From positions 434,001 through 498,000 of the forward strand of contig NZ_VVIW01000003.1 in the NCBI RefSeq assembly GCF_011682045.1: a stretch of 64,000 nt of DNA. The letters run 5' to 3'. The notes beneath the pieces were generated by a model. That model did not search any database. It was given only the letters and a program-made list of their open reading frames with translations, and was not told the DNA's origin. This DNA is from Massilia aquatica (GTDB lineage: Bacteria > Pseudomonadota > Gammaproteobacteria > Burkholderiales > Burkholderiaceae_D). Both the position numbers and the translations under genes were made by a program. Below, in pieces: positions 10,955 to 34,354 of this stretch (its first letter is position 1; each line of letters begins with the position of its first letter).

Positions 10955-10955
10955 C

Positions 10956-14689: not shown

Positions 14690-14700
14690 GAAAGAAACAC

Positions 14701-15897: not shown

Positions 15898-15904
15898 CTC
15901 ACGC

Positions 15905-15927: not shown

Positions 15928-15951
15928 ATCCTCACCTCAAGAAAGAATCTC

Positions 15952-16131: not shown

Positions 16132-16134
16132 CCT

Positions 16135-17793: not shown

Positions 17794-17798
17794 AAGCC

Positions 17799-19453: not shown

Positions 19454-19471
19454 CCCGACTCTTTTTTCCAT

Positions 19472-19509
19472 GCCCGTTTCGGGCGAACCACCGGCCCGCC
19501 TCGCGCGGG
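19472..19509 (+). repeat. Two small hairpins before the tail tube gene
   Basis: GCCCG/CGGGC around TTT (19472-19484) and CCCGC/GCGGG around five bases (19495-19509), the second followed by TTTCTTATTT. They are weak as terminators but echo the hairpins near the other highly expressed virion genes. Confidence 0.45.
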
Positions 19510-19537
19510 TTTCTTATTTCCCGAAAGGAAAACACAA

Positions 19538-20182
19538 ATGGCACTTTCTCTTCCAACCGGCACGCTCTACGCGCTGGCCACCGTCTACGCAGCCGCAGTT
19601 CCCGTTACCGCCGGCACCAACGCGACCGAAACCGTTCTGTCTGCAACAAACACGCTCGCCGCCGGCGACTACGTCGAATACACCGGCAGCTGGAGCCGCG
19701 CAACCAACCGCGTGTTCCGCGTCAAGGCTGCGACTGGCACCACCGTCACCCTGGAAGGCCTCGACACCACGTCGACGTCGCTGTTCCCTGCGGGCGGCGC
19801 AACGGGCTCGCTGCGCAAGATCACCACCTGGGTACCAATCGCGCAAATGATCAGCTGCGAGCCATCGGGCGGCGAGCCGAAATACGCCACCGTCAACCTG
19901 CTGGACGTCGAGAACGAAATCAGCCTCCCGGACGGCTACAGCGCGCAGACCTTGGCAATGTCGATCGCAGACGATCCGAACCTGCCGCACCACGCTGCGC
20001 TCAAAAGCGCGGCCGAACTGCGCAAGATTGCCGCAATCAAGGCGGAGCTGCCCGCCGGCAGCAAGATCCTTTACAACGGCTATATCAGCTTCGACGAATC
20101 GCCTTCGATGACAAAGGGCCAGGTGATGGCCGTCAAAGCCGGCTCGGCCTTGCAAGGGCGCCCAGTTCGCTACTCCGCGTAA
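19538..20182 (+). CDS. Major tail tube protein
   Basis: 214 residues. The start MALSLPTGTLYALATVY is typical of a siphovirus tube protein, with a beta-rich centre (AGDYVEYTGSWSRATNRVF; TGTTVTLEGLDTTST). The last part (ELPAGSKILYNGYISFDESP) carries the conserved end of phage tail tube families. It polymerises on the tape measure protein to make the tail tube. Tandem terminators follow at once, as expected for a very highly expressed gene. Confidence 0.8.
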   Translation: MALSLPTGTLYALATVYAAAVPVTAGTNATETVLSATNTLAAGDYVEYTGSWSRATNRVFRVKAATGTTVTLEGLDTTSTSLFPAGGATGSLRKITTWVPIAQMISCEPSGGEPKYATVNLLDVENEISLPDGYSAQTLAMSIADDPNLPHHAALKSAAELRKIAAIKAELPAGSKILYNGYISFDESPSMTKGQVMAVKAGSALQGRPVRYSA

Positions 20183-20210
20183 TTCCACCCCCATCCAGTT
20201 GTGTCTCCTG

Positions 20211-20232
20211 ACCCGCATGTGCGGGTTTTTTT
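20211..20232 (+). terminator. Terminator 1 after the tail tube gene
   Basis: ACCCGC (20211-20216), a four-base loop, GCGGGT (20221-20226) and a T run to 20232. First of a tandem pair 28 bases after the tail tube stop. Confidence 0.75.
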
Positions 20233-20235
20233 ATG

Positions 20236-20264
20236 CCGGCGGCTTGATCACCGCCGGTCTTTTT
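20236..20264 (+). terminator. Terminator 2 after the tail tube gene
   Basis: CCGGCGG (20236-20242) pairs with CCGCCGG (20251-20257) and is followed by TCTTTTT. It stands directly behind the first terminator, leaving only 17 bases before the tail chaperone start. Confidence 0.7.
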
Positions 20265-20281
20265 CTCTCTGAAAGCAAAAA

Positions 20282-20629
20282 ATGACCAAGACCATCGCAA
20301 AACCAAAACGCTCCCTCGACGTATCGCCAACCTTCAAGGCCGCAGTGACCATTCCCCGCGCGGGCAGCGACTCGTTCGACATCGAGTTCGTTTTCAAGCA
20401 CCGCACCAAGGCCGAATTGAAAGAATTCTCGGATGCGGTTGCGTCTGGCGCCGGCGACGAAGATGCGAAAGACAGCGATGTGCTGCTCGACATCGCCAGC
20501 GGCTGGGACCTGGACGAACCTTTCGACGCCGACTCGCTCGAAAAGCTCACGCAGCGCTTCATGGGCTCGACCCAGGCTGTGCTCAGCGCCTACTTCTTCG
20601 AACTGTCGGGTGCGCGCGCAAAAAACTGA
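20282..20629 (+). CDS. Tail assembly chaperone, gpG-like (0-frame product)
   Basis: 115 residues: VSPTFKAAVTIPRAG, then a beta/alpha core (FDIEFVFKHRTKAELKEFSD) and a helical end. It occupies the lambda G position and should bind the tape measure protein during tail assembly. The gene ends in GCA AAA AAC TGA; the heptamer A-AAA-AAC at 20620-20626 is a canonical -1 slippery site right before the stop, so a fraction of ribosomes should continue in the -1 frame into the next gene to give a G-T-type fusion ending at 20940. Confidence 0.8.
   Translation: MTKTIAKPKRSLDVSPTFKAAVTIPRAGSDSFDIEFVFKHRTKAELKEFSDAVASGAGDEDAKDSDVLLDIASGWDLDEPFDADSLEKLTQRFMGSTQAVLSAYFFELSGARAKN
20620..20626 (+). promoter_or_regulatory. 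Programmed -1 ribosomal frameshift site (A AAA AAC)
   Basis: The heptamer is in the correct phase (gcA AAA AAC TGA) immediately before the chaperone stop. Slipping back one base makes the next codons CTG ATC GCG and runs in frame, with no stop, into the reading frame at 20647. This reproduces the lambda G/GT arrangement. No downstream pseudoknot was worked out. Confidence 0.8.
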
Positions 20630-20646
20630 TCGCGCTTGCAGAGTCC

Positions 20647-20940
20647 ATGTATCGAAAGACCCCGTCGGCCGAAGAACTGGAGGCGGCGTGTCTGACGAAA
20701 GAGGACTTTGCAGGCGAGGAAGTAGACCCCTGGCCCGACAACATGCCGGCGCTGCTGCTGTTTCAGTACATGCGAACGCAGTGGCGAACTGGCGCCAATG
20801 GGCCGTGCGGCCTCGATTACATGGTCATGCACCACAGGATGGCCCGCATGGACCTGTCACCCGACGAATACGACCAGCTCGAGGCGGATATCCAGACGAT
20901 GGAAGTCGCCGCGCTCAACTGCATTTACGCAGATAGTTAG
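20647..20940 (+). CDS. DUF1799-like protein, T-part of the tail chaperone
   Basis: 97 residues counted from the ATG at 20647, which has only a weak ribosome site; the frame is open upstream to the slippery site, so the main product may be the G-T fusion of about 219 residues. The sequence (SAEELEAACLTKEDFAGEEV; then WPDNMPALLLFQYMRTQWR) matches DUF1799, the usual partner after the chaperone in such phages. An ending of MEVAALNCIYADS and an immediate hairpin close the unit before the tape measure gene. Confidence 0.75.
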   Translation: MYRKTPSAEELEAACLTKEDFAGEEVDPWPDNMPALLLFQYMRTQWRTGANGPCGLDYMVMHHRMARMDLSPDEYDQLEADIQTMEVAALNCIYADS

Positions 20941-20964
20941 CCGCCTTCGGGTGGCATTTTTTTT
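20940..20964 (+). terminator. Terminator-like hairpin before the tape measure gene
   Basis: GCCGCC (20940-20945), a TTCG tetraloop, GGTGGC (20950-20955) and eight Ts (20957-20964). The stem starts on the last base of the DUF1799 stop codon. The UUCG loop makes it very stable. Confidence 0.8.
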
Positions 20965-20975
20965 AGGCCAGGCCA

Positions 20976-23900
20976 ATGTCAGAAACCACGAACAACGCGA
21001 CAATCAAGGTCGCCGTCGACGCCGAGGGTGTTGAGGTAGGCCTGCGCAAGATTGATGACGCCGCAGCCAAAACCGGGCGCAATCTTGATAGCCTGGGGAA
21101 GAGCGACAGCGCGTTCGCCAAAATCGGGGCAGGTGGCGATGCGGCCGCTGCCCGCGTGCAGGTCGCAGCCAAGACGCTCGCTGAATCCGTTGCGGCGACG
21201 CAGGCAGCGATGGCGGAGGGTGGCAAGGCCAGCGCCGCCTACTACGCTTCGATCGCCAATTCCAAGGGCGCGCCGGAGGCGATGAAGCCGTTACTCGCGC
21301 AGATCGACGCGCTGACCGCTGCGGAGAAGACCCGCGCCCAGACATTTTCCACCGGCCTGGAGCAAACCAAGAGCCTGTTCGCGATCGCCGGCGCTGCCGC
21401 TACAACCGCGCAACAGCAGATCGCGGCCATGCGACTCGACTCTGACCAGCTGGTGGTGCCGGATGAGGCTATCCAGAGCCTGAAGGACTGGCGTGAGGCG
21501 GCAGCTTACGCCGTCGGTACGGCGGTCGGTGGCGGGATCGCTATTGCCAAGACCGCCTTCCAGGAAGTCACCGAATTCATCAAAACCAGACTGATCATCG
21601 CCGGGACTGCTGCCGCGATCGGCATTTCAGCTGCCGTCCTTGGGGCCACGTATGCGGCTTACAAGACGATCGACTTCGCGGCAGGGCTGCTCACTGGCGA
21701 GAGCTACAAGAGCGCCAATATCGACGCCCTGGTTGCTGCCAACAAGGAAGTGGTCGACCTGCAAAAGAATTTCCGTTTGAGTGCGAACGAGGCGTCCGGA
21801 TTGGCCGCAGCCCTGGCTGGGCTCGGCGTTGCCAAAGGCGATTACATCGAGACCTTCCGCGAGGCGGGAACCGCGATCAAGTCGAACAAGGATGAGCTTG
21901 ACGCGCTCGGGGTCAAGTACAAGGATGCCGCCGGCAACCTGCTGCCGATGCGGGATGTCCTGGTCAACGTTCAGACCGAGCTGTCGAAATATACGGAGGG
22001 CCTCGAGCGCAATGCTGTCGCGTCGGCACTGGGCTTCGGCTCATCTGAAAAGATCGACGCTGCCCTGAGTGTGACTGCGGAAAAGCTGGCCGCCGTGACC
22101 GAACGCCAGCGCGAGTATGGGCTGCTGATCAGCGGAACCCAGCAGGCCGAGATGGGGCGCTATGCCTCCGTCATGGCCGAATTCAACGTCGAGCTGGATA
22201 ACACGTCACAGGGGTTCAAGCGTGCGATTGCCGACAACATCATGCCGGCGCTCACCAATCTGGCTGATTTCTTCAAAGAAGGCTGGCCATCAGTCGTCCA
22301 GGGATTTCGGGGTGGGATGGCTGCGTTCACCAGCCTGTTCTACGGACTGAAGACCGTCGTCGACATCGTCGTTGAATCCGTCAAGGCCACGTTTGACGTC
22401 GTCATTCAGGGATTCGGAGGGGCCGTCAAGGTATTCGGCAATCTGATCAAGGGAGACTTTCGTGCTGCGGCAGCCAGCCTTGTGGAGATCTGGGACGGCG
22501 CCATGGCTCGGTTTGGCAAGGCCGGTGACAAGATGGTCGACTATGCGCGCGCCAACGTTTCGGCCATCAAGCTGGCTTGGGGGCAAAAACTTTTCCCGGA
22601 CGAGTTGCAGCCGCGGCTGCCAGAACTAAAGAGCGCGGACCAGGCCAAGGACGCGATCAAAAAGGCTGCTGACATCAATGAGCAGGCCGCCGCGTACAAA
22701 AAGCTGTCGGCCGTCACGGCTGACCACATTGCCTTACTACAGGCAGAGGCGACCGCTGGCGCTAAACTTAGCGAAGGCCAACGGCTGGCCTTTGAGTTTA
22801 CACGTGAACTCGCCGCCGGAAAATCGAAGCTGACCGACGAGCAGAAGAGAGAGCGTACTGCGCAGATCGAAACTCAAATCGCTCTTGAAAAGACGATCGA
22901 GAAAAATGCAGAAAGCCAGAAAGCCGGAACGTCTGCATCGACTGCAGCATCTGCTGCTGCCAGCAAACAGGCAAGTGAATATGCGAATCTCGGCCAGGCT
23001 ATTCAGTCAAAAATTGCGGCCAACACCTTAGAGCTGGCCACAAGCACGGCCACGTCCGAAAGCCAGAAGCTCGGGATCAAGCTGGACTTGGAACTCAAGT
23101 CCGGCAAGCTCAAGCTCACGGATGCCCAGATCGCCTCCACAAAAGCATCGCTGGCCGAGCTGGCGGTGACCGAGCGGAAAATGAAGCTCCAGACCGCTGA
23201 GAAGGGCGTCGCAGAATACATTACGCAGAATACGCTTGCGCGCGTGGCTTTTGCTGCAACCCTTGCTTCCGAATATGAGCTGTACGGTCAAGTAAGTGAC
23301 GCACGCGACCTGGCTGCGGTGGGCCTGCGTGTCGAAGCCGAACTCCAGAAAAAACTGGCCGATCTGCGGAAGGCCGATCTGCCGATCTCCGAAAAGATGA
23401 TCGAGCAAATGCGCGAGTCTGCGAAAGCGCGTGCGATCGACGAACGGGCCACGCTCGCGCAGACGAAGGCGCTGGGCTATGCCGCTCAGCTCCATGACGA
23501 AAATATCCGCTTTGCCGCCGAGTCGATCACCGACGAGCGCACCCGCGCGGCTGAGTTGCTGGAAATTGACGCCGGGAAGTGGCGCGCGCGGATCGCGCTG
23601 GCCCAAGAAGGAACCGAATCGCAGAAGCTGCTCCAGCAGGAATTCGACACTTGGTACAAAAACCAGTCGGGCAAAGCGGCCATGGACGAATGGCGCAAGT
23701 CCGTCCAGCAGTACGACGACATTTTCCGTACTGGCTTTGCCGACATGCTGAACAACGGCCAGGATGGCTGGAAGTCGTTCACAAAATCACTGGTCACCAC
23801 GTTCAAGACCTCGGTTGCGGACCAGATTTACAAGATGTTCATCAAACCGATCGTGGTCCAGGTCATCGGCAACGTCGTTGGCGGGAATGGCGGCGCCGGC

Positions 23901-26459
23901 GGCATCATGGGGCTCTTCAGCTCGTCAGGTGGCGGCGCAGGTGGTGCAGGCGGCGGGAGCCAATACGTTGGCCTGGCCCAAAGCGCATCGAACGCATACG
24001 AGGCAATTGAAAAGGGCTTTACCGGCATGTCCTCCCAAATGGGGAACATGATCAGTACAGTGGGCGACTACTTCGGCTCATCGAACATTTCCGCTTTCGG
24101 CAACGGTATGTCGATGGGAACCGGTAATGCCGCCAATGCCGCCAATGCCTATAACGGCGCAGGCATGACCAGCACGGGCACATCGTTGAACGCTGGTGCC
24201 ACTGCTGGCAGCGCCGCAACCATCGCCATGGCATGGCTTGCTGCCGCGCAGATCGGGCGCAAGATCGGCAATTGGATTTCGGACGGATACTCCGTGCGAA
24301 GCGGCAGCAACGGCAACGGGTTTGTAAATTTCACGACCTTGCAGAGCTCGGTCCCGATCTTGGGCGGGATTGTCGGGGGGTTGATCAATCGCGCGTTCGG
24401 CCGCCGGCAAAAAGAAACAACCGGATCGACCCTGAACGGCACCTTCGCCGCAGACGGCGGATTCGCTGGCCAGACAGATTCGACCTGGCGCCAGAAAGGC
24501 GGCTGGTTCAGGAGCGATAAATCCGGCACCGACACCATGGCCGTCAACGACACGAGCGCCAAAGAATTCGCAAGCGCCTACTCGTCGATCAAACTGGCCG
24601 CCGCCGACTTCGCCACGGTGCTTGGCATCAACGCCGAGTCGATCGCCACGCGCACCCAGAAGATCAGCATCGCCATCACAAAGGACGAAGAGGCGACAAA
24701 AAAGGCGATTACCGACTTCTTCGTGGGCGTCGGCAACCAGATCGCGCTAGAGCTGGTGCCGTCGTTGGGTGAATTTACGAAGGGTACGGAGACGGCAAGT
24801 GAGACGCTGCAGCGTGTCGCTGGCGAGTATGCATTTATCGATGCCGCCCTTGCGGCTGTGGGTGACACGTTCGGCGCAGTGGGCGTCGGCTCGATCAAGG
24901 CGCGCGAGTACCTGTTGGAGCTGTCGGGCGGGATGGATGCGTTCGGTAAGGACGTAGCCTACTTCTCGCAAAACTATCTCACCGAAGCGGAACGGCTGGC
25001 GCCAGTTGCGAAGGCCGTTGAGGCCGCATTTGCTGACCTCCAGGTTGCAGCGCCCAAGACGCGCGCGGAATTCAAGGCTCTGGTGATGGGCCTTGACCTG
25101 ACCAGCACGAATGGTGCGAAAACCTACGCCGGCCTGATGAATATTCAGGAGGCCTTCGCGCAGCTGAACCCAGCACTTGAGGAAGCGGCGACAAAGGTTC
25201 GTTCTGCCGCTGATATCGAGAAGGAACGCGCCGGCCTACAAGATCAGTTCGACCAGCTGGCCCTGACACCGGAGGCGTACCGCAAGAAGCAGTTGGATAA
25301 GCAGCGCCTTGATACGGATGTCAGTAATCGGGACCTGTTCGACAACGTGCAGTATGGGATCGCTGCCGATGCGGCAAACGCTGCGAAGAAGGCGGCGGCC
25401 GACACCCTGGCCGCGACGAATAAGGGCTATCAAGATCAGATCGACGCTTTCGAAAAGGTGGGCAAGAAGGCCGCAGAGGTGCGCGACCTGGAAATCGCAG
25501 GGATGGACGCCACCACGGTCAAGCTGTACGACAAGCTCAAGGCCTACCAGGCCACCGCCACGGCCGCAGCTCTCGCGGAACAAGCGGCAGAGAAGCTCAA
25601 ATCGGTCAACAGCAGCTACGAAGATCGGATTTTTGAATTCAAAAAGCCTGACATGGTTCCGGCCAAGGTCCGCGAGCGCGAGATCGCCGGCATGGACGCG
25701 ACCACGGTCAGGCTGTACGACGAACTCAAGGCGCTCGAAGCGGCGAAGGTGGCAAAGGACGCCTTTGACCGCATCGAAGCCGAGCGCGCGGCCGCCGCCA
25801 AGCGCGACCAGGAGGAGCTGGCGCGCGAACAGGCGCGCGTGGCAGAGGAAGCCACACGCGCTGCCGAGCAGATCAAATCTGCCTGGCAGTCGGTCACAGA
25901 TTCGATCTTCGACGAGGTGGCGCGCATTCGCGGCATGGTATCTGGCAATGCCGCCCAATCGCTTGCGAGCGTGCAGACGGAATTCGCCATCAAGAACGCC
26001 CAGGCGCAGGCCGGCAACCAGGACGCGGCAAAGCTGCTGCCGTCCATCTCGCAAAAGCTGATCGAGCTGGCCGAGGCCAACGCCACATCGCTGATCGACT
26101 TGCAGCGCATTCGCGCGCGCACAGCGGCCAGCCTCGACGCAACCGGCGCCATCCTGGCCGCGCGCTTCGGGCTGACGCTGCCGAGCTTGGCTGTGGGCAC
26201 CAACTACCTGCCGGCGGACATGATGATCCAGGCGCACCAGGGCGAGCGCGTGATCCCGGCCGCCGACAACCGCGCACTGATGCAGATGATCAACCGGCCA
26301 GCGCCGGCCGACACGTCGGGCGCGGCGCAGCAGCAGGCCAGCAACGAGATGGCCGGCCTGCGCGCCGAGGTGCGCTCGATCGCCATCAGCAATGCGGCCA
26401 TGGCAGGCATGCTCAAACGCGTCATCAAGGACGACAAACTGCAAACGGAGGAAGCATGA
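20976..26459 (+). CDS. Tail tape measure protein
   Basis: 1,827 residues, the longest gene in the window and one that fixes tail length. The N-terminal part (1-200) is Ala-rich and helical; a hydrophobic segment lies at about 205-229 (RLIIAGTAAAIGISAAVLGA); long charged coiled coils follow. A lambda-gpH-type C-terminal core (GFADMLNNGQDGWKSFTKSL) is at about 910-930, with a Gly-rich stretch behind it. Near 1,500-1,590 a 63-residue unit is repeated in tandem (EIAGMDATTVKLYD and EIAGMDATTVRLYD). The last 100 residues end in a coiled coil (RAEVRSIAISNAAMAGMLKR). No lytic domain was recognised. Confidence 0.9.
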   Translation: MSETTNNATIKVAVDAEGVEVGLRKIDDAAAKTGRNLDSLGKSDSAFAKIGAGGDAAAARVQVAAKTLAESVAATQAAMAEGGKASAAYYASIANSKGAPEAMKPLLAQIDALTAAEKTRAQTFSTGLEQTKSLFAIAGAAATTAQQQIAAMRLDSDQLVVPDEAIQSLKDWREAAAYAVGTAVGGGIAIAKTAFQEVTEFIKTRLIIAGTAAAIGISAAVLGATYAAYKTIDFAAGLLTGESYKSANIDALVAANKEVVDLQKNFRLSANEASGLAAALAGLGVAKGDYIETFREAGTAIKSNKDELDALGVKYKDAAGNLLPMRDVLVNVQTELSKYTEGLERNAVASALGFGSSEKIDAALSVTAEKLAAVTERQREYGLLISGTQQAEMGRYASVMAEFNVELDNTSQGFKRAIADNIMPALTNLADFFKEGWPSVVQGFRGGMAAFTSLFYGLKTVVDIVVESVKATFDVVIQGFGGAVKVFGNLIKGDFRAAAASLVEIWDGAMARFGKAGDKMVDYARANVSAIKLAWGQKLFPDELQPRLPELKSADQAKDAIKKAADINEQAAAYKKLSAVTADHIALLQAEATAGAKLSEGQRLAFEFTRELAAGKSKLTDEQKRERTAQIETQIALEKTIEKNAESQKAGTSASTAASAAASKQASEYANLGQAIQSKIAANTLELATSTATSESQKLGIKLDLELKSGKLKLTDAQIASTKASLAELAVTERKMKLQTAEKGVAEYITQNTLARVAFAATLASEYELYGQVSDARDLAAVGLRVEAELQKKLADLRKADLPISEKMIEQMRESAKARAIDERATLAQTKALGYAAQLHDENIRFAAESITDERTRAAELLEIDAGKWRARIALAQEGTESQKLLQQEFDTWYKNQSGKAAMDEWRKSVQQYDDIFRTGFADMLNNGQDGWKSFTKSLVTTFKTSVADQIYKMFIKPIVVQVIGNVVGGNGGAGGIMGLFSSSGGGAGGAGGGSQYVGLAQSASNAYEAIEKGFTGMSSQMGNMISTVGDYFGSSNISAFGNGMSMGTGNAANAANAYNGAGMTSTGTSLNAGATAGSAATIAMAWLAAAQIGRKIGNWISDGYSVRSGSNGNGFVNFTTLQSSVPILGGIVGGLINRAFGRRQKETTGSTLNGTFAADGGFAGQTDSTWRQKGGWFRSDKSGTDTMAVNDTSAKEFASAYSSIKLAAADFATVLGINAESIATRTQKISIAITKDEEATKKAITDFFVGVGNQIALELVPSLGEFTKGTETASETLQRVAGEYAFIDAALAAVGDTFGAVGVGSIKAREYLLELSGGMDAFGKDVAYFSQNYLTEAERLAPVAKAVEAAFADLQVAAPKTRAEFKALVMGLDLTSTNGAKTYAGLMNIQEAFAQLNPALEEAATKVRSAADIEKERAGLQDQFDQLALTPEAYRKKQLDKQRLDTDVSNRDLFDNVQYGIAADAANAAKKAAADTLAATNKGYQDQIDAFEKVGKKAAEVRDLEIAGMDATTVKLYDKLKAYQATATAAALAEQAAEKLKSVNSSYEDRIFEFKKPDMVPAKVREREIAGMDATTVRLYDELKALEAAKVAKDAFDRIEAERAAAAKRDQEELAREQARVAEEATRAAEQIKSAWQSVTDSIFDEVARIRGMVSGNAAQSLASVQTEFAIKNAQAQAGNQDAAKLLPSISQKLIELAEANATSLIDLQRIRARTAASLDATGAILAARFGLTLPSLAVGTNYLPADMMIQAHQGERVIPAADNRALMQMINRPAPADTSGAAQQQASNEMAGLRAEVRSIAISNAAMAGMLKRVIKDDKLQTEEA

Positions 26460-27376
26460 GCGGCATGAAGGTCATCAAGCCAACGACGATCACCACGGCG
26501 ATGCTGACCAGCAGCACGGTGCCCGAGCCTCACCCGGAGTCCGGAGAAAGCCTGTGGGTTTCAGGCACCACATACGGGGTCGGCGCTATGGTGATCCGGA
26601 CAACAACCCACATGAGATACGAACGGACAGTCGCCGGGACATCAACAATCGTGCCCGAAAACGACCTGACGAACTGGATCGAGGCCGGGCCGACGCTGCG
26701 GTGGGCCATGTTCGACAGGAAGATCGGCACGGCTACCACCGCCGCGACGGCAATCACGGTCGTCACGCGCCCCGGCAGCATCTCCGGGCTGGGCATGTTA
26801 GAACTCGTCGGCCGGCAGGTAGCGGTAACGCTTAAGGACGCGCCTGGCGGCACCACGGTCTACAGCCGCACGGTCAACCTGGACGGCACGCAGATCACCA
26901 GCGTGTACGAATGGTTCTTCCTCGACTTCGAACAACTCTCGGACTTTGTGCTCACCGACCTGCCGCAGCATTACGCCGCGTGCGAGCTGACGGTGACGAT
27001 CACGAGTACGAAGCCGGTTTCGGTCGGCGTGCTCCAGGTGGGCCAGGTGATAGCGGTGGGCAGTGCGCAAAAGGGCGCCACCGTCGGCATCATCGACTAC
27101 AGCAAAAAGGAGAAGGACCGCTTCGGCAATTGGGATGTGGTCGCCGGCCTGTTCAGCAAGCGCGGCAATCTCCAGGTGCTCACTCCGGCCGGCGAGTTCA
27201 ACAGAATTTTCCGGTCGCTGGCGGGCCTGCGGACGATACCGTGCATTTACATCGGGGCGGATCAAGTCGGCTTCGAACCGCTGATTTTTTACGGCTTTTT
27301 CAAAGACTTTTCCATGGTGATCCCGTACAGCAAGTACCACCTCTGCAACCTTGAAATCGAAGGACTCTCCCAATGA
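26456..27376 (+). CDS. Phage tail-tip protein with CBM5/12-like carbohydrate-binding segment
   Basis: 306 residues, starting by ATGA overlap with the tape measure gene. Residues about 31-80 (LWVSGTTYGVGAMVIR, then NWIEAGPTLRWAMFD) have the Trp/Tyr/Val spacing of small chitin-binding-type modules seen in phage tail proteins. A beta-rich middle and YSKKEKDRFGNWDVVAG follow. It lies between tape measure and fibre, so it is probably a baseplate or distal-tail protein that touches the cell surface. Confidence 0.65.
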   Translation: MSGMKVIKPTTITTAMLTSSTVPEPHPESGESLWVSGTTYGVGAMVIRTTTHMRYERTVAGTSTIVPENDLTNWIEAGPTLRWAMFDRKIGTATTAATAITVVTRPGSISGLGMLELVGRQVAVTLKDAPGGTTVYSRTVNLDGTQITSVYEWFFLDFEQLSDFVLTDLPQHYAACELTVTITSTKPVSVGVLQVGQVIAVGSAQKGATVGIIDYSKKEKDRFGNWDVVAGLFSKRGNLQVLTPAGEFNRIFRSLAGLRTIPCIYIGADQVGFEPLIFYGFFKDFSMVIPYSKYHLCNLEIEGLSQ

Positions 27377-28311
27377 CAATTACTGCAATTCCCCCGCTTG
27401 ACCGGTTGTCGCCAACGTTCCGCGCGGACACCGACACCTATTTCGCCAGCCGCATTCCCACGCTCACCGTCGAGCTGAACACCTTGGCCGACGACCTGAC
27501 GATCAAACAGGGCCTGGCCAGCGCCGCCGCCATCGCTGCGAACAACGACAAGATCACCACGGCCGGTTTAAAGGACACCGCACAACTGGCGGCCGATGCA
27601 GCTGCAAGTTATCGGACCCAAGCAAAAGGCTGGGCAGATGCCGCAGCGGATAGTGCAAAAACTATCGGCATCACAGCGGCTTTCTCGGATGTGAATCCAA
27701 TTGTAAAGAATGCTGCGGATAATTCAAAAACCGGCAGATTTGATTTGAGTTTTATTTCACCATCAACCCAGCCCGTTATTCAGTGGCCTAATAAGAGCGG
27801 AAAGATGGCCTTAATCGGTGATGGTGGCCTCGCCTTTTTAGGCGAAGTAACATTGGCTGCGCCCGCTGCTGCAATTGATTTTCTTACCATTTTCAATACC
27901 CCGGCGCATGACCGATTTTTAATAACTGTGCATTATGCAAAGGCTGTAACCGACTTTGTTCCTGCGGCATTGCGATTTGCAGTAGGGGGCGTTGTAGAGA
28001 CAGGTAATGTATACGGTATTGCCGCCCTGACAGGCTCGCAGACTAGTGGCAGTAACACCCTTTGGCCATTGGGTCCAACTGGGACTAATAACCCTAAAGA
28101 CTACGAAATTACAGTTTATGATAAAAACCGCACATTAAGTTCATCGGGTTGTACCTGGCTTCATTTATACGGTACTGGCACTCAAATGTTCACCGGGAGT
28201 TTTAATCCTCCGAATCCAAACCCGATCAGCGGCTTTAGAATAGTTACCATAAATAATACCAACATCGCAGCGGGTGCAATTGTCCGCGTGTATGGATATG
28301 CAAAATCATAA
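27373..28311 (+). CDS. Tail fibre/receptor-binding protein
   Basis: 312 residues. The N-terminal 100 (LSPTFRADTDTYFASRIPTL; LAADAAASYRTQAKGWADAA) are the helical/Ala-rich shaft region common to fibres that begin by attaching to the tail. From about base 27,600 on, the codons turn AT-rich (TTT, ATT, AAT, TTA) unlike the phage around it, and the protein becomes Asn/Thr/Gly-rich, a typical adhesin tip. The change points to an exchanged receptor-binding module. Function is inferred from position and composition. Confidence 0.7.
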   Translation: MTITAIPPLDRLSPTFRADTDTYFASRIPTLTVELNTLADDLTIKQGLASAAAIAANNDKITTAGLKDTAQLAADAAASYRTQAKGWADAAADSAKTIGITAAFSDVNPIVKNAADNSKTGRFDLSFISPSTQPVIQWPNKSGKMALIGDGGLAFLGEVTLAAPAAAIDFLTIFNTPAHDRFLITVHYAKAVTDFVPAALRFAVGGVVETGNVYGIAALTGSQTSGSNTLWPLGPTGTNNPKDYEITVYDKNRTLSSSGCTWLHLYGTGTQMFTGSFNPPNPNPISGFRIVTINNTNIAAGAIVRVYGYAKS

Positions 28312-28321
28312 AGGAATATAC

Positions 28322-28675
28322 ATGAGCATAGTTTATTGGGACGATGAGACGCAATCTCAACAAGAGCGCGACATGACGCCGGAAGAATTGGCGCAGCGTG
28401 AACTGGATATTGCAGCAGCCGCCGTGCCGCGCGTGCCGGAATCCGTGCCGATGTTGAATGCCCGGCTTGCGCTGATTGTCGCCGGGCACATGGTCAAGGT
28501 GAAGGCTTACGTCGACGGGATGACGGGCATCGAGGGCGAACAGGCACGCGCATATCTCGAATACGCGCAGAACGTCCGGCGCGACCACTGGCTGGTCGAA
28601 GGCATCCGGCAGGTGCTGGGCCTGACGCCGGCCGATATCGACCAGTTGTTCATCACCGCCGCGACGATCGCCTGA
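28322..28675 (+). CDS. Putative tail fibre assembly/chaperone protein
   Basis: 117 residues from the ATG at 28322 with AAGGA upstream. The second half (PMLNARLALIVAGHMVKVKA; then VRRDHWLVEGIRQVLGLTPA) is a helical pattern widely found in the small protein directly after a fibre gene, often annotated as fibre assembly or chaperone. The acidic N-terminus (VYWDDETQSQQERDMTPEEL) may interact with the fibre. Confidence 0.6.
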   Translation: MSIVYWDDETQSQQERDMTPEELAQRELDIAAAAVPRVPESVPMLNARLALIVAGHMVKVKAYVDGMTGIEGEQARAYLEYAQNVRRDHWLVEGIRQVLGLTPADIDQLFITAATIA

Positions 28676-28695
28676 TCGTGTGCGCTCCACCACTG

Positions 28696-28717
28696 GCCAC
28701 CTTCGGGTGGCTTTTTT
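28696..28717 (+). terminator. Terminator after the tail genes
   Basis: GCCACC (28696-28701), TTCG tetraloop, GGTGGC (28706-28711), then six Ts. It has the same design as the hairpin at 20940 and separates the tail genes from the lysis cassette. Confidence 0.8.
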
Positions 28718-28731
28718 ATTGAAAGAACCAC

Positions 28732-29055
28732 ATGGAACCGTCTACCCCACGCCCCGACATGATCGACACGAAACTACCCCTCACATGGCTGATCAGCACA
28801 GCCGGCGCCATCTGCCTTGCCCTCGCCGGCTTCGCCGTCACCAGTTCCAGCAACACGGATAAGACGCAGGCAAAGCTCGACCTGCTGCGCGTCGACCAGG
28901 CCACGCTGATCCTCAACATCGCCAAGCTGGAAAAGCGAGTCGATGACCGTGACACTCGCACCGATGCGCTCAAGGAAATGCAGTACTCCATGCAGCGCAT
29001 CATCGACGGCCAGGGCATCCGGCTGGAATCGCTCGAGCGGGGCCAGCGCAAATGA
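28732..29055 (+). CDS. Membrane-anchored coiled-coil protein at the start of the lysis cassette
   Basis: 107 residues. One transmembrane helix (about 16-36, PLTWLISTAGAICLALAGFA) is followed by a coiled coil (about 42-105, KAQAKLDLLRVDQATLILNI-like heptads ending in IIDGQGIRLESLERGQRK). Located immediately before the holin with an ATGA overlap, it may be a holin partner, antiholin or spanin-like regulator, but no such activity can be read from the sequence. Confidence 0.6.
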   Translation: MEPSTPRPDMIDTKLPLTWLISTAGAICLALAGFAVTSSSNTDKTQAKLDLLRVDQATLILNIAKLEKRVDDRDTRTDALKEMQYSMQRIIDGQGIRLESLERGQRK

Positions 29056-29273
29056 CCCTAATCGAAGACTGGCGCGCCGTGCTCGCCAAGGCCTGGAGCC
29101 TGAAATTCAACGCCGCTGCCGGCCTGCTGGGCGCCGCCGAGGTGTATATCGCGCTGGTGCAGCCGGTCGGCGTTCCCAATGGCGTATTCGCCGGCATCGG
29201 GGCCTTGGTCTCGACGCTGGCATTTGGCGCGCGCTTGCTCGCGCAGAAAGAAATCCATGGCAACGACACTTAA
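29052..29273 (+). CDS. Holin
   Basis: 73 residues with two hydrophobic helices (AAAGLLGAAEVYIALVQ and AGIGALVSTLAFGARLLAQ) and a short charged tail (QKEIHGNDT). Length, topology and position directly upstream of a lysozyme identify a small class II-type holin that permeabilises or depolarises the inner membrane at the lysis time. It overlaps the preceding gene and the endolysin. Confidence 0.75.
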   Translation: MTLIEDWRAVLAKAWSLKFNAAAGLLGAAEVYIALVQPVGVPNGVFAGIGALVSTLAFGARLLAQKEIHGNDT

Positions 29274-29712
29274 ACAGCGGGCCGGCTGGCTGGCGATCGC
29301 GGCCGTCTTCGTCGGCGGCTTCGAGGGCCTGCGCCAAGCAGCCTACCTGGACCCGGTCGGCATCCCGACGATCTGCTTCGGGGAGACCAAGGGCGTGCGT
29401 CTGGGTCAGCGCGCGACGCTCGCGCAGTGCGATGCGATGCTGGCGGCCTCGCTCCAGCTGGCGAACCATGCCGTGGACGACTGCATCCGCGCGCCGCTGC
29501 CCGACTACCGGCGCGCCGCGCTGGTCAGCTTCACCTACAACGTGGGCCAGGCCAGTCTGTGCGGCTCCACGCTGGCGCGCAAGCTGAACGCGGGCGACGT
29601 GGCAGGTGGCTGCGACGAGCTGCTGCGCTGGACGCTCGCCAAGGGCATCCGGCTGCCGGGCCTGGTGAAGCGGCGCGCCATCGAGCGCAACATGTGTCTG
29701 GGGGTCGTGTGA
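29257..29712 (+). CDS. SAR endolysin, GH24 phage lysozyme
   Basis: 151 residues from the ATG at 29257. The weakly hydrophobic, uncleaved N-terminal helix (LAIAAVFVGG) followed by the catalytic triad Glu23, Asp32 and Thr38 in the exact E-8-D-5-T spacing of T4-type lysozymes marks a signal-arrest-release enzyme like P21 R. It cuts peptidoglycan after the membrane is depolarised and the helix leaves the bilayer. It overlaps the holin by 17 bases and the Rz gene by GTGA. Confidence 0.9.
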   Translation: MATTLKQRAGWLAIAAVFVGGFEGLRQAAYLDPVGIPTICFGETKGVRLGQRATLAQCDAMLAASLQLANHAVDDCIRAPLPDYRRAALVSFTYNVGQASLCGSTLARKLNAGDVAGGCDELLRWTLAKGIRLPGLVKRRAIERNMCLGVV

Positions 29713-30104
29713 GCGCCCTGGGCACGCTGGCCGCCGGCGTCACAGGCGGCATCTGGAAGGTCATCGCCGTCGTGCTGCTGGCCGCCCTGCTGGTGGTGAG
29801 CGCGTGGGCGGGCGGCAGCTGGTTCCTGGCGGCGCGCGACCGAGACGCCGCCCGCGCCGAGCTGTCCGCCGAGCGCAGCGCCAACGCGGAACTGCGCGCC
29901 GGGATCCAGTTGCAGAACGGCGCAATCGAGGCGGCCGGTACCGCCAAGCTGCTGGCCGAGGCGCGTGGCCAGGCCGCCCAGCAGCAGGCCGCCGCCACTG
30001 GCCGGCGCTTCGATGCCGCGCTGGCCAAGGTCGCCGGCGCGCGCGCCACCACCTGCGACGAGGCCATGCCGACCGTCGACCTGATCTTGGAGTCCGTGCG
30101 ATGA
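29709..30104 (+). CDS. Rz-like inner-membrane spanin
   Basis: 131 residues from a GTG overlapping the endolysin stop. A transmembrane helix (about 15-38, WKVIAVVLLAALLVVSAWAG) is followed by a long periplasmic coiled coil (AELSAERSANAELRAGIQLQ). It pairs with the lipoprotein Rz1 to fuse the inner and outer membranes in the last step of lysis. Confidence 0.8.
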   Translation: MSALGTLAAGVTGGIWKVIAVVLLAALLVVSAWAGGSWFLAARDRDAARAELSAERSANAELRAGIQLQNGAIEAAGTAKLLAEARGQAAQQQAAATGRRFDAALAKVAGARATTCDEAMPTVDLILESVR

Positions 30105-30370
30105 CCGCCCGCCGCATGCTGTGGGCGTGCGCCCTGCTGGCGGTACTGCTGCTGGCCGCCTGCGCTGGCCGGGCGCCGGTTGTGCAAGAGGTCAAGGTGC
30201 CAGTGTACCGGCCGTGCGTCACTGGCGCGCTCGAGCGACCGGCGTTCGCTGTACGCGGCCTGGCGCCCGATGCCAGTGACGGTGAGAAGGTGCTCGCCTT
30301 GGCGCGCGACCTCCCGTTGCACCTCAAGTACGAGGCGCAGCTGGAAGCCGTGATCGCGGGGTGCTTGTGA
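30101..30370 (+). CDS. Rz1-like outer-membrane lipoprotein spanin
   Basis: 89 residues. A lipoprotein signal ends in LLLAAC with the lipidated Cys21; the mature part has the Pro/Val-rich stretch VVQEVKVPVYRPC and a helical end. It follows Rz by ATGA overlap rather than being nested inside it, the separated type of spanin pair. Confidence 0.8.
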   Translation: MTARRMLWACALLAVLLLAACAGRAPVVQEVKVPVYRPCVTGALERPAFAVRGLAPDASDGEKVLALARDLPLHLKYEAQLEAVIAGCL

Positions 30371-30507
30371 GCGACGAGGCCGGGCCGCTGATTTTGGAGA
30401 TGCACCGGATCGACGGTCCGGACAAGTCACCCATGCAGATGGTCAGCGCCGAGCTGCTAGCGCACTACCGGTGCTGCAAGGCCGGGCTGGTGGCGCTTGC
30501 CGAATGA
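30367..30507 (+). CDS. Small phage protein after the spanins, 46 residues
   Basis: 46 residues from a GTG that overlaps the Rz1 stop (GTGA). The chain is acidic with a central Met-rich helix (DGPDKSPMQMVSAELLAHYR). No family is recognised; it is the last GC-rich phage gene before the AT-rich cargo segment. Confidence 0.5.
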   Translation: MSDEAGPLILEMHRIDGPDKSPMQMVSAELLAHYRCCKAGLVALAE

Positions 30508-30805
30508 CCAGATGTTAGTCCTGCTTGCTTGGGGCACGAGCACTCGGCATGCTTATCGCATTTACCGCGTCGGGAGAATTCCGACTGGATCGACAAGGGT
30601 ACTCGCAATACTGAGCGCGAGCAAGCGTAAAATTTGTTCGATTGCTTTTGATGCAGCATCTGTAGCTTCCGTCCTTCGAGAAGATAAAATTTTTGGCCTC
30701 GTAGTGTGCTCGTTAGACTGTGATTGCGCGACTGCTGTATATTGTTTGTAATTGCATCTACGGATACGTCCACCGTAGAATATTAATCTTATGGGAGAGT
30801 TTTCG
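30508..30805. other. AT-rich junction at the start of the cargo segment
   Basis: Composition drops sharply here compared with the lysis genes. One frame (30512-30751, about 79 residues, starting MLVLLAWGTSTRHAYR) is open but lacks a ribosome site and has an odd Ser/Ala/Cys composition, so it is not called a gene. A TATTAAT box at 30779-30785 could be the -10 element of the promoter for the gene at 30806. Confidence 0.4.
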
Positions 30806-31054
30806 ATGATCAAAATGCGCGTCGATTATCTTGGGTATGTTATCTATGTGGATGCCGTGCTAGGTGTAGATAAAAAATTCTGTGCTGGAGCTCAAGTGGC
30901 TGGTCCGACTGGATTTATTGGCTTCACAGATCTTGGGATTTTTGCGACCGATACTGAAGCGATAGAGTGTACGACGCGTTGGGTAAAAAAATGGATCGAC
31001 AGCGGTGTCGCTGATAAGGCTTTAGCTGAGGCGTTTTCAAAACTAAGCTTTTAA
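30806..31054 (+). CDS. Small AT-rich cargo gene, unknown (82 residues)
   Basis: 82 residues from the ATG at 30806, chosen because GGGAG lies eight bases upstream; an ATG at 30791 is the alternative. The protein (VDYLGYVIYVDAVLGVDKKF; then GFTDLGIFATDTEAIE) looks like a compact alpha/beta fold. Codon choice (TTT, GAT, TTA) is unlike the phage structural genes. It lies directly before the diguanylate cyclase and is probably part of the same acquired segment. Function unknown. Confidence 0.6.
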   Translation: MIKMRVDYLGYVIYVDAVLGVDKKFCAGAQVAGPTGFIGFTDLGIFATDTEAIECTTRWVKKWIDSGVADKALAEAFSKLSF

Positions 31055-31204
31055 CTATATTTGTCGAATAGCGGTCTTGCGCCTACAGACATAGTGCGTA
31101 AAAGGCAGATACTATATGGGAAAACCTCGATTTTGCAACCTCCTGCCTTTAGCATGTCGGTATTGCAGGTGAAGCTTTCAAATCTAACCTTTTTCTTGGT
31201 ATTT

Positions 31205-32812
31205 ATGATAAAGACGCTTGCCGGAATTGGGACGCTCAGGTCTCGCCTAACGACAGTGGTGGTTTTTTTGGTACTGCTAGCGGCCGCATTAGTCGCCTAT
31301 GTTTCTTTGCAGCTTGGAGAGCGGCAGATGCGTGCAGTAGTTGGCGATCAACAGGTTGCGTTGTTATCCAGTGCAGCGTCGTATATTGACGAGGACCTTG
31401 CGTCGAAAAAAACTCTTATGATGTCGATAGGTGAGCAATTGAGTCTGGGAGATTACAGAGCACCGTCGGCGATCCAGCAATTCCTCGAAGTTCACGCTAG
31501 TTTACGTGATGAGTTTTTCAATGTGATCGCCCTTGATGCAAACGGTAATCTTATTGCAAATCTTAATGACAGGCGTTCCATTGGTCTGTCTAATTTTAGC
31601 AAGCGAGACTATTTTATCGATACAGTGAACAACCGCGAAGGTGTGATATCTGCGCCGTTTCGGAGTGCGTTATCAAAGAAACCTGTGGTCGTGGTAACTG
31701 AGCCTGTATTCGATGTCAATGGGAAACTGCTGTACATTATAGGCGGAGCCATTGATCTGCAAAGGCCCCGTTTTTTTGGACAACTCGCGGTGCTGAAATC
31801 TGGTCAGAGTGGGTATCTGTTTATGCTCACGAAACAAGGTATTGTCATTCACCACCCTGACCAACAGAGAATTCTAATGAATGTCACACAAGAGGCGGGG
31901 GGCGCCGTTCCGTCAACGTTAGCAGCGATGAATGGTTTTGAAGGGTGGGTCGAAGGAAGGTCGAAAAAGGGGGTTAATTCACTAATTGCTTACAAGCGAC
32001 TCTTTCGGACAGATTGGATAATTGGGTCAGTTTACCCTGTTGAAGAAGCATTCGCTCCACTTATCGATATGCGTCGGAAAGCCCTATTAGCATCCGGTGG
32101 GGTGGCAATCGTTGCCGGTTTGTTGGGTTGGCTTGCTATTATGCGGTTGTTGCTTCCGTTAGGCGCATTGCGCAGGCACGTTGCGGATATATCTGGTGGA
32201 AGTATTAACATAAAAGTTTTTGATGTCATCCGTCGAGACGAATTCGGTGAATTAAGTAGGGCATTTTTTTTGCTTTCTCTACAACGACGAGAGGTGGAGG
32301 AAGAGCTGGTCAGACTTACGCGCACCGACGCATTGACTGGTCTATATAATCGACGTATGTTTGAAGAATCGATGGTAATGGCTTTAGCGCGGGCGCGTCG
32401 AAATAAGCAATATATTGCGTTAGCGTATCTCGATATCGACCATTTTAAAAGTATAAATGATTCCTATGGCCACGGAACAGGTGACCAAGTATTAATTGAA
32501 TTTGCGAGGCGAATTAAGCTTGCGGTTCGCACCACCGATACAGTAGTCAGGTTAGCGGGCGACGAGTTTGTAGTAATTTTCGAAAACCTGGCCGACGACA
32601 CTGAGATCCCAGAGTTGGCAAGGAAAATTCTTGCCAGTATCGAGCCTGCGTTCGTTCTCGGCTGCCTCAGCTTTGCTGTCACCACGAGTATCGGCATCGC
32701 CATCAATGCCAACGGCTATAGTAGTGTGGGCGCGTTGATGGAGGCGTCCGACAGTGCGCTCTATGAAGCCAAGCGAAAAGGTAGAAATGGCTTTGCACTG
32801 CATCGTTGCTAG
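31205..32812 (+). CDS. Prophage-borne membrane diguanylate cyclase (dCACHE-HAMP-GGDEF, AGDEF active site)
   Basis: 535 residues from the ATG at 31205; upstream in-frame starts exist (TTG 31061, ATG 31154) but this one places the first transmembrane helix (14-36) at the N-terminus. A periplasmic dCACHE-type sensor covers about 40-280 (SLGDYRAPSAIQQFLEVHAS; KRDYFIDT; SGYLFMLTKQGIVIHHP), then a second helix (294-318), HAMP (about 316-370) and a GGDEF domain (372-535) with LTRTDALTGLYNRR, DIDHFKSIND and AGDEF at 451-455. The inhibitory site RTTD (442-445) is intact at the standard five-residue distance. It should make cyclic di-GMP from GTP in response to an external ligand. AGDEF replaces GGDEF; AGDEF cyclases with activity are known (Vibrio cholerae VCA0965). 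AT-rich codons mark it as cargo. Confidence 0.88.
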   Translation: MIKTLAGIGTLRSRLTTVVVFLVLLAAALVAYVSLQLGERQMRAVVGDQQVALLSSAASYIDEDLASKKTLMMSIGEQLSLGDYRAPSAIQQFLEVHASLRDEFFNVIALDANGNLIANLNDRRSIGLSNFSKRDYFIDTVNNREGVISAPFRSALSKKPVVVVTEPVFDVNGKLLYIIGGAIDLQRPRFFGQLAVLKSGQSGYLFMLTKQGIVIHHPDQQRILMNVTQEAGGAVPSTLAAMNGFEGWVEGRSKKGVNSLIAYKRLFRTDWIIGSVYPVEEAFAPLIDMRRKALLASGGVAIVAGLLGWLAIMRLLLPLGALRRHVADISGGSINIKVFDVIRRDEFGELSRAFFLLSLQRREVEEELVRLTRTDALTGLYNRRMFEESMVMALARARRNKQYIALAYLDIDHFKSINDSYGHGTGDQVLIEFARRIKLAVRTTDTVVRLAGDEFVVIFENLADDTEIPELARKILASIEPAFVLGCLSFAVTTSIGIAINANGYSSVGALMEASDSALYEAKRKGRNGFALHRC

Positions 32813-32976
32813 AGACTTTCCGCTCCGCTAACTTACGCGTGTTAGTTGTAGCTGGGTTCATGGGGCCGCAAATCGTCGCATCAACGTCGCATATTGAAGT
32901 CTGGTCCCGTTGTAACACGTTGGTTAGCCTTGAAAAAATCGCCTACCAACTCCTTGCGGAAAAGTAGTCCATGATT
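32813..32976. other. Intergenic stretch between the cyclase and the integrase
   Basis: 164 bases separating two convergent genes. No terminator with a clear T run was found on either strand. Nothing else is recognised. Confidence 0.4.
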
Positions 32977-34185
32977 TCAAAGTCCTAATGTCGAAGAAAG
33001 CTTGCAGAATTCCGCCCAGTCGCGCATGAGTAACACACGCTTGTCGATCAGCGTCCCACGTCTGTAGGCGGCCTCGACCTTGTCCGGCAGCTTGTGCGCA
33101 AGCGCATGCTCACAAACCTCACGCGGATACGAGTTGCCCACGGCTTCCGCGCACCAGTCGCGAAACGTCGACCGAAAACCGTGAACAGTGATGTCGTCGC
33201 GCTTCAAGCGCCGTAGCACTGCTGTGAGGCTCATGTCGGATAACGGACGATCTTCTCGCTGACCAGGAAACAGAAAGCTCCCGGAGCGCTCCACCGCGCG
33301 GAGTAGGGTGACGGCATCAGGGGCAAGCGGTACCTGGTGCTCCACCTCGGCCTTCATCCGTGAAGCTGGAATCGTCCACAGCGCAGCTTCGAAATTAATT
33401 TCATCCCACGTTGCGCCCCGGACTTCGCCTGAGCGTGCCGCAGTCAAAATCGCGAACTCCAAGGCTCGTGCACCGACGCCTGCGCTGCCGCGCAAGGTCT
33501 GCATGAAGTCCCCGATTTCGCGCCATGGCAGGGCCGCATGGTGATCGACCTTTGCGATCTTCGCTGGTGCTGCAAGCAAGTTATCCAAATGCCCGCGCCA
33601 ACGCGCCGGATTTTCCCCTGCGCGGAAATTGCTTACGGTGGCCCAGTCAAGGATGCTTTCGATTCGGCCCCGCAGCCGTGTTGCCGTCTCCGTCTTAGAG
33701 TGCCAGATGGGGGTGAGGACTTTAACGACCAGGGCAGTGTCAATATCGGCCACGGGCAGCGCACCGATTATCGGGCCAGCGTACGTGTCAATCGTGCTTT
33801 CCCATTGCGCCGCATGCTTGGCATTCTTCCAGCCGGACCGGTGCGTCGTGATATAGGCTGTAGCACACTGACCGAATGTCATCGCCTTCGCACGTTCGAG
33901 GTCATCAGCGAGCTTGCCAGCGACGCGGGCGGCGAGTGGATCTTGACCAGCAAGCAGGACGATGCGGCAATCCCTTGCTTTGGCACGAGCCTCGGCTAAA
34001 GTGACGGTATGAGTCGCCCCCAAGCCCATCTCCCGCCGCTTCCCGCCGAACGTGAAACGAAATATCCAGCTCTTTGTTAGCGATGCCGATATCTGCAAGT
34101 ACAGACCGGCACCATCGCTATAATAGCCAGGCACTTTCATTTTACTCACGCCCAAGGGGGTAAGCTTTTCCACCGTTCTCGCCAT
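32977..34185 (-). CDS. int: Prophage tyrosine integrase, P4 type
   Basis: 402 residues. An N-terminal DUF4102 arm-binding domain (about 1-90, SDGAGLYLQISASLTKSWIF) is followed by a core-binding domain and a catalytic domain with Arg251 (TAARSGEVRG), His335-x-x-Arg338 (HGFRSTFRDW), His364 and the nucleophile Tyr374. It inserts and removes the phage DNA. Its 5-prime end faces the right prophage boundary, so the attachment site is expected just to the right of 34185. Two TACCCACC repeats lie right upstream. Confidence 0.93.
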   Translation of the reverse strand: MARTVEKLTPLGVSKMKVPGYYSDGAGLYLQISASLTKSWIFRFTFGGKRREMGLGATHTVTLAEARAKARDCRIVLLAGQDPLAARVAGKLADDLERAKAMTFGQCATAYITTHRSGWKNAKHAAQWESTIDTYAGPIIGALPVADIDTALVVKVLTPIWHSKTETATRLRGRIESILDWATVSNFRAGENPARWRGHLDNLLAAPAKIAKVDHHAALPWREIGDFMQTLRGSAGVGARALEFAILTAARSGEVRGATWDEINFEAALWTIPASRMKAEVEHQVPLAPDAVTLLRAVERSGSFLFPGQREDRPLSDMSLTAVLRRLKRDDITVHGFRSTFRDWCAEAVGNSYPREVCEHALAHKLPDKVEAAYRRGTLIDKRVLLMRDWAEFCKLSSTLGL

Positions 34186-34189
34186 TTTC

Positions 34190-34299
34190 TACCCACCATT
34201 GTACCCACCGTCGATACGTGGATTGTACCGCATGCATGTGAACAATGACGAACAAATTTATGCCCTACGCCCCGAGAGTTCATAGGAGAACGAACAAAT
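34190..34299. repeat. Paired direct repeats upstream of int (candidate att arm sites)
   Basis: TACCCACC occurs twice 12 bases apart (34190, 34202), and ACGAACAAAT twice 42 bases apart (34248, 34290). Tyrosine integrases of this class bind repeated arm sites beside their core site. The core crossover cannot be identified without the left prophage end. Confidence 0.5.
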
Positions 34300-34354
34300 A
34301 AGAACAATTTTGAATAAAAAATAGGCGGACCGTCTCTCCGCCAGAAAACAAAAG

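Follow-up and report, generated by a model that had tools for sequence, protein, structure and literature searches.

Diguanylate cyclases, which make the second messenger cyclic di-GMP (c-di-GMP), occur on integrative and conjugative elements, phages and plasmids (PMC10672970). Among temperate siphoviruses of Bordetella, LK3 and its relatives are annotated with a cyclase, and LK3 lysogens form more biofilm, in two strains 2-4 times more (PMC8471281). DgcX of Escherichia coli O104:H4, a membrane-sensor cyclase with an inhibitory site (I-site), travels with prophages (PMC4287979), and in Vibrio alginolyticus the cyclase Dgc137, carried by a mobile element, changes both biofilm formation and motility (PMC10672970).

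Here we describe a gene for a predicted membrane diguanylate cyclase in the window G000:C33:434001-498000, a 64,000-nucleotide stretch of the Massilia aquatica genome (host genome G000; negative positions lie to the left of the window). The gene stands in an AT-rich block between the lysis genes and the integrase of a prophage. With a probability of roughly 0.7, judged from the sequence, its product is a sensor diguanylate cyclase that came from a bacterium, is intact and probably active, and is carried as accessory cargo by a temperate siphovirus-like phage.

An intact gene for a predicted AGDEF sensor cyclase

The open reading frame (ORF) spans 31061-32812 on the plus strand (583 aa) and is open throughout. 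The nearest homologue begins MIKTFASIGSLKARITVVVVFLVLLAA, which corresponds to the window from ATG 31208 onwards, and the family alignment puts the likely start there as well; this ATG is therefore probably the true start (534 aa) and the mechanical TTG at 31061 too early. In the 583-aa ORF, the Pfam domains GGDEF (PF00990, E = 2.2e-46, residues 422-576) and dCache_1 (PF02743, E = 1.5e-21, residues 90-323; 77.5 bits against a cut-off of 45) exceed their cut-offs, as does the match of the cyclase to TIGR00254 (2e-41). HAMP (PF00672, E = 3.2e-5, residues 360-402) reaches 24.6 bits against a cut-off of 25. The dCache-HAMP-GGDEF order proposed in an earlier note made from the DNA alone thus stands above threshold for the sensor and cyclase domains and falls narrowly under it for HAMP. 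Residue numbers below count from ATG 31208.

The same note had described an AGDEF active site (A-site) accompanied by an intact RTTD at the right distance, and this is what the gene encodes: RTTDTVVRLAGDEF (RTTD-TVVRL-AGDEF) begins at residue 441, the RxxD I-site lying five residues before the A-site. The canonical GG(D/E)EF signature is departed from at its first glycine, which weakens the case for activity without removing it, as an AGDEF cyclase can be active (PMC3974145). Hydrophobic 19-residue windows start at 7-20 and 291-303 and flank the sensor on both sides, where the two transmembrane (TM) segments are predicted. An AlphaFold2 model built on 21 sequences (mean predicted local distance difference test score, pLDDT, 80.8) consists of a long N-terminal helix, the sensor, a second long helix and a GGDEF fold. 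Foldseek ranks multi-domain chains with low TM-scores highest by E-value; within the first 50 PDB hits of its list, the modelled sensor resembles the dCache ligand-binding domains of Mlp24/Mlp37, solved with amino acids, at a TM-score by target of up to 0.85, whereas the cyclase domain resembles YfiN (1.3-1.4 Å), WspR and PleD. That the sensor looks like those for amino acids offers a hint about its ligand.

Relatives were sought in 392 genomes sampled from a larger group, one genome per species, which we call Oxalobacteraceae after a named homologue. With the host's own genome counted, full-length relatives occur in 34 of these at E 1e-150 and in 8 of the 17 genomes of the genus at E 1e-120. 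Five of the family matches contributed no new locus: one is the host paralogue (L002), and the others, weaker hits in G173, G379, G365 and G143, lie outside the reading of motifs. That reading covered 35 loci and, after removal of the window itself and of L038 (the same gene as L017, from Massilia eurypsychrophila), compared 33 homologues. The A-site is AGDEF in 31 of them and SGDEF in two, so that AGDEF is the usual state of this chromosomal cyclase family; its presence in 31 of 33 rules out decay as an explanation of the altered glycine.

The window copy departs from the other 33 sequences at a single one of the 69 columns invariant among them (L436I). D409, D411, N417, D418, G451, D452, E453, F454 and K522, as well as R441 and D444 of the I-site, whose catalytic and inhibitory roles we assume here, all occupy alignment columns that do not vary among 21 homologues. 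A rough simulation left an unselected frame open in 3 of 2000 cases. Differences from the sister gene of M. eurypsychrophila stand at 0.26 for the first codon position and 0.19 for the second, but at 0.63 for the third, where they are thus concentrated. The lone departure, the invariant catalytic positions and this bias of the changes together suggest that the protein was kept working over most of its history.

A prophage with fixed limits

The limits of the prophage are fixed by three congeneric relatives (G003, G009 and G008) whose flanks join directly where the element is missing: in blastn alignments the left-flank match runs to about -4440 and continues straight into the match at 34330. 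These empty sites and the attachment (att) cores give a span from about -4452 to 34343 and a length of about 38.8 kb. The cyclase gene lies within both sets of limits and is therefore prophage-encoded, as the earlier note had claimed. That note had also named a finding that would speak against it, the same gene at this chromosomal place in strains lacking the prophage; in the empty-site stretches of the three relatives, compared across species, neither the cyclase nor the integrase nor the lysozyme had a match. Gene order had suggested an attR to the left of the integrase, which is ruled out by the empty-site alignments that place it to the right.

Besides packaging, head, tail and lysis genes (Table 1), the element carries an Rha/antirepressor-like gene, KilA-N, a helix-turn-helix regulator, a helicase and a Toprim protein for replication and regulation. 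The lysozyme (29179-29712) matches Phage_lysozyme at 1.1e-39 and the endolysin family phrog_7 at 1.1e-53. The 73-aa protein that opens the lysis genes is holin-like by position only, and the Rz/Rz1-like region (29710-30370) owes its name only to where it lies and to a weak likeness, with Rz-like spanin models at E 0.096-0.12. From this gene content, the prophage looks structurally complete and is most likely temperate and siphovirus-like.

Lateral origin of the gene

The nearest homologue found, the M. eurypsychrophila gene (L017), shares 68% amino acid identity with the window copy. A maximum-likelihood tree of 34 rows joins the two as sisters with 100/99 support, the window copy's end branch measuring 0.39, and sets them away from the host paralogue; the window copy is among eight long end branches of less certain placement, and the joins flagged by the program exclude it. 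GC content at third codon positions (GC3) is 0.466 in the window cyclase versus 0.731 in its sister. Because the gene joins that of M. eurypsychrophila, not the host paralogue, and differs from it so strongly in GC3, tree and composition place its origin outside the sampled genus lineage. It is most likely a bacterial gene captured by a phage. Within the genus, six of the seven other loci share both flanks with L010 and are one syntenic chromosomal gene, L016 being different; in their flanking DNA, neither the 29 homologous loci compared nor L017 has anything in common with the window gene. A recent duplicate of the paralogue on host contig C16 was considered and is ruled out by 62% identity and separate positions in the tree. 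This paralogue (G000:C16:88657-90959) has a second GGDEF match in a neighboring 220-aa open frame.

A cargo slot between the lysis genes and the integrase

The earlier note's AT-rich block, unlike the phage around it, holds up both in composition, with a GC content of 0.469 versus 0.602 for the rest of the prophage and 0.639 for the flanks examined, and in its left edge, where the preceding small ORF is conserved in three related prophages. The cyclase lies within the prophage limits, is extra relative to related phages and is composed unlike the phage, as expected of cargo. The small protein that the note had seen beside it, 87 aa long, has no assigned function, as none of the models listed in Table 1 matched. 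Its homologue (54%) in one other of the 392 genomes belongs to a G016 prophage (L130), where an AT-rich stretch past the lysis genes carries an IS66 remnant and this gene adjoins another integrase. The predicted fold, from a two-sequence alignment and five models with pLDDT from 79 to 50, has four strands followed by two helices. A structural search with the model gave nothing at E 0.001 or better; phage records gave no match, and a search of viral contigs that reaches close relatives only gave nothing confirmed.

Related prophages were collected through a tail gene (10 matches in 8 of the 392 genomes, the host's own counted), through the 87-aa protein (one more) and through the integrase (20 stretches fetched of 46 other matches). 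Several stretches are short or ended by contig ends. Among ten of the loci, L122 stops short of the lysis genes, and nothing in L128 or L129 matched a lysis gene; L123-L126 run past the lysis genes into sequence of ordinary GC. A lysozyme homologue occurs in four of the 20 stretches 3' of related integrases (L133, L135, L139 and L142); the PADLOC scan covered some of the cargo proteins. In the G131 prophage (L133, 3693-5916), an AT-rich gene for a TIR protein (TIR_2, DUF3298) and one for a DUF3644 protein matching PADLOC PDC-S19 lie between lysozyme and integrase. The same interval holds two RHS-repeat proteins and a DUF4272 protein in the G016 prophage of L135 (148-6433), and a 390-aa protein without Pfam match in L139; three proteins scanned from these two stretches had no PADLOC match. 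Shortly after the lysis genes of the G008 prophage (L142, 5075-6735) stand HipA_2 kinase-like and DUF3037 genes, matching PADLOC PDC-M66A/B. An AT-rich stretch past the lysis genes of the G002 prophage (L121, 4449-5814) encodes a HATPase-like protein (E 0.0023, under the cut-off) and a STAS-like DUF4325 protein; three cargo proteins of L121 had no PADLOC match. Candidate defence genes thus occupy the slot in two of the four lysozyme-bearing integrase stretches (L133 and L142). By gene content, the place is a cargo slot whose load varies, at least in some of these prophages.

Table 1. Coordinates of the prophage, its attachment sites and its main genes
Feature	Position in window	Strand	Description and basis
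Prophage, window part	1..34343		Start ~4.45 kb left of window; end = attR core; blastn empty sites, att sequences
attL core	~-4466 to -4453		3' end of tRNA-Ser(GGA) gene; ARAGORN tRNA-Ser on L061 15457-15547
Packaging, head, tail genes	10556..26459	+	Terminase small and large, portal, protease, major head, adaptor, tail terminator, major tail, tape measure; PHROGs
Lysis genes	29052..30370	+	73-aa protein, lysozyme, Rz/Rz1-like region; order common to related prophages
Last conserved small phage ORF before cargo	30370..30507	+	tblastn 75-84% aa in L123, L124, L130
AT-rich cargo block	30509..32812	+	GC 0.469
87-aa protein	30791..31054	+	Function unassigned; no Pfam, NCBIfam or PHROGs match; no PADLOC match at E up to 0.01
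Membrane diguanylate cyclase (predicted)	31208..32812	+	TM1 ~10-35, dCache ~42-275, TM2 ~285-308, HAMP ~312-354, GGDEF ~374-528 (residues from ATG 31208)
Tyrosine integrase	32977..34185	-	Arm-DNA-bind_3, Phage_int_M, Phage_integrase; 5' end towards attR
attR core CCGTCTCTCCGCCA	34330..34343	+	Identical 14 bases to tRNA-Ser 3' end at attL

Surroundings of the insertion site

In G007 (L077, 9611-9874), a fragment of the integrase (residues 307-394, 97% identical) adjoins that genome's copy of the right flank of the window, and the fetched remainder of the contig has no cyclase match. The fragment may be the scar of an earlier related element, in which case related elements would have used this insertion region before. 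A GC-rich palindromic stretch (34330-34522) to the right of the tRNA-Ser insertion site is kept in several relatives and has more matches elsewhere in the genus; Rfam at gathering thresholds had no match over the window, this stretch included. Just outside attR lie a homologue of the DarT1-associated NADAR antitoxin (34490-35293, 6e-90) and, beside it on the minus strand, a zeta toxin homologue (35354-36241). Neither was matched in the fetched G003 stretch, and G009 has an 82% zeta homologue there; DarT1 itself was not searched for.

Active cargo or passenger

Several observations weigh against a working, expressed cyclase that serves the phage. No clear ribosome-binding site precedes ATG 31208 by eye, and the plus-strand promoter-like matches ahead of the two cargo genes (30714-30743 and 31034-31061) agree at only 9 of 12 positions each, although the region (30300-34400) is richer in promoter-like matches than shuffled sequences are (nine versus 3.2; SD, 1.8). 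After the cyclase, no plus-strand terminator-like site was found between 32812 and 32977; phage morons are defined by a promoter and a terminator of their own. HAMP, just below its cut-off, is also poorly modelled (pLDDT <50 at residues 316-342), and two further, weaker hydrophobic peaks fall inside the GGDEF domain. The conservation tests include the time before capture, spent on a chromosome, and are no proof of selection inside the phage.

The strongest alternative, unlikely as we consider it, is a passenger captured by chance through imprecise excision or recombination, of no use to the phage and persisting only because its capture is recent. The gene was found in one prophage only: no cyclase match occurs in the 30 related-prophage stretches, of which several are short or limited by contig ends, so that the cyclase which the earlier note would have sought at the same locus of related prophages did not appear there. 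The 131 phage records that match the protein are all below 60% identity, none aligns at a single place over 80% of its length, and some look like host contigs; viral contigs gave no close relative in a search that reaches close relatives only. The host, for its part, has about 60 other GGDEF matches. However, at 68% identity to the nearest homologue found, and with such different GC3 values, the gene is no fresh copy of any sampled host gene. Its frame is open with one of 69 invariant positions changed, and some relatives have accessory genes of other kinds in this slot, all of which argues for cargo over a chance passenger.

Less likely again is a catalytically dead protein, whose AGDEF site would make no c-di-GMP and which, if working, would regulate by binding c-di-GMP or partner proteins via the intact I-site. 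A GGDEF protein with a degenerate site can act as a receptor for c-di-GMP, and here the first A-site glycine is replaced and the I-site intact. Nevertheless, the other positions that we take to be catalytic are invariant in 21 homologues, and AGDEF is the rule in the family. The earlier note had held that AGDEF cyclases are documented and activity therefore plausible. One such enzyme, VCA0965 of Vibrio cholerae, was indeed shown to make c-di-GMP in work that contrasts the receptor option with activity; most substitutions at its first A-site glycine position abolish the motility effect, so the tolerance of AGDEF depends on context (PMC3974145). Given the conservation described above, and VCA0965, which is active with AGDEF yet lost its motility effect with most other substitutions there, we regard the window cyclase as quite likely, rather than certain, to make c-di-GMP.

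A barrier to superinfection seems improbable. Raised c-di-GMP would alter flagella, pili or a surface polymer and so block competing phages, the cyclase being this phage's entry in a defence slot. The PADLOC candidates in L133 and L142 speak for such a slot, but no PADLOC model fits the cyclase itself at E up to 0.01, the proteins scanned from L135, L139 and L121 are equally without match, and L135 carries RHS-repeat proteins. A broader proposal, in which the slot serves defence and conversion and a ligand-gated cyclase raises c-di-GMP on a periplasmic signal, reshapes the host surface, excludes competing phages and favours the attached state, is a long shot; it is worth stating because half of the four slots with a lysozyme hold candidate defence genes, even though the cyclase fits no defence model. 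If true, the phage would carry an exclusion device that works through a second-messenger output, not through a toxin or nuclease. That the cyclase is a chromosomal gene merely adjoining the prophage, as its mainly chromosomal family might suggest, is rejected by the empty sites that join across the whole element in three relatives, by the att cores enclosing the gene and by the unshared flanks of the 29 homologous loci and L017.

Proposed role in the lysogen

For an active cyclase carried as cargo, the following course is the most likely. A temperate phage would have picked up a bacterial sensor cyclase gene, which now lies between the lysis genes and the integrase of the phage. In the inner membrane, where the protein would sit, the periplasmic dCache domain would bind a small molecule and HAMP would pass the signal to the cyclase domain; the AGDEF cyclase would then make c-di-GMP until the RTTD inhibitory site is occupied by product. 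For the lysogen this would mean one more c-di-GMP input, tuned differently from the others and acting on motility or attachment. Since the host genome already has 66 matches to the cyclase protein, 62 of which (the gene itself counted) reach its GGDEF part, the effect on host c-di-GMP is likely local or conditional and not a global switch.

As the element's boundaries and empty sites, the cyclase's nearest relative and the slot that it occupies are all fixed, a single deletion in one lysogen would directly test phage control of host c-di-GMP. The family also illustrates that AGDEF may be what an entire group of cyclases conserves rather than a sign of decay, and the variable cargo slot is worth mining in related prophages.

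Comparison with known systems

Seven PHROG families match the GGDEF part of the protein. A literature search on GGDEF as a phage auxiliary metabolic gene found nothing, and one naming phage- or prophage-encoded cyclases by exact phrase returned only work on peptides acting on YfiN. The MASE2-GGDEF gene of Klebsiella phage ST846-OXA48phi9.1 was not counted, as it lies at the very end of its record and may be host flank; in that prophage set, a different prophage is inserted after a MASE2-GGDEF gene (PMC7371120). Shewanella SfPat is reported with changed expression of a phosphodiesterase gene, and the accessible text describes no phage-encoded cyclase (PMC12440353).

The closest counterparts of the window cyclase are the chromosomal dCache-HAMP-AGDEF cyclases of Oxalobacteraceae, such as L017, which share its domain order by alignment, its AGDEF and its I-site. 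L017 differs in being chromosomal and in starting directly after a gene cluster that resembles phenylacetate/acyl-CoA metabolism (translations judged by eye), whereas the window copy is AT-rich prophage cargo. VCA0965 has the same combination of AGDEF and an RxxD I-site, a likeness drawn from its description and not from direct sequence comparison, and the accessible part of its report mentions no phage link (PMC3974145).

LK3 and the related phage CN1 share with this element a cyclase gene in a temperate siphovirus (PMC8471281). The CN1 cyclase differs in size (152 aa), in its partial GGDEF match and in that no sensor domain was found, and it stands beside an antirestriction gene among phage genes, not between lysis genes and integrase; the biofilm effect of LK3 is not tied to the cyclase gene by deletion in the accessible text (PMC8471281). 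DgcX, although likewise a prophage-associated membrane-sensor cyclase, is adjacent to lambdoid prophages and hitchhikes by specialised transduction, has an intact GG(D/E)EF and carries an N-terminal membrane sensor of unassigned function (PMC4287979). Dgc137 is island-borne rather than phage-borne and acts in new hosts (PMC10672970). The addition of a cyclase by a temperate phage is thus already known; what is particular here is a full dCache-HAMP-AGDEF sensor inside proven prophage limits, in a cargo slot.

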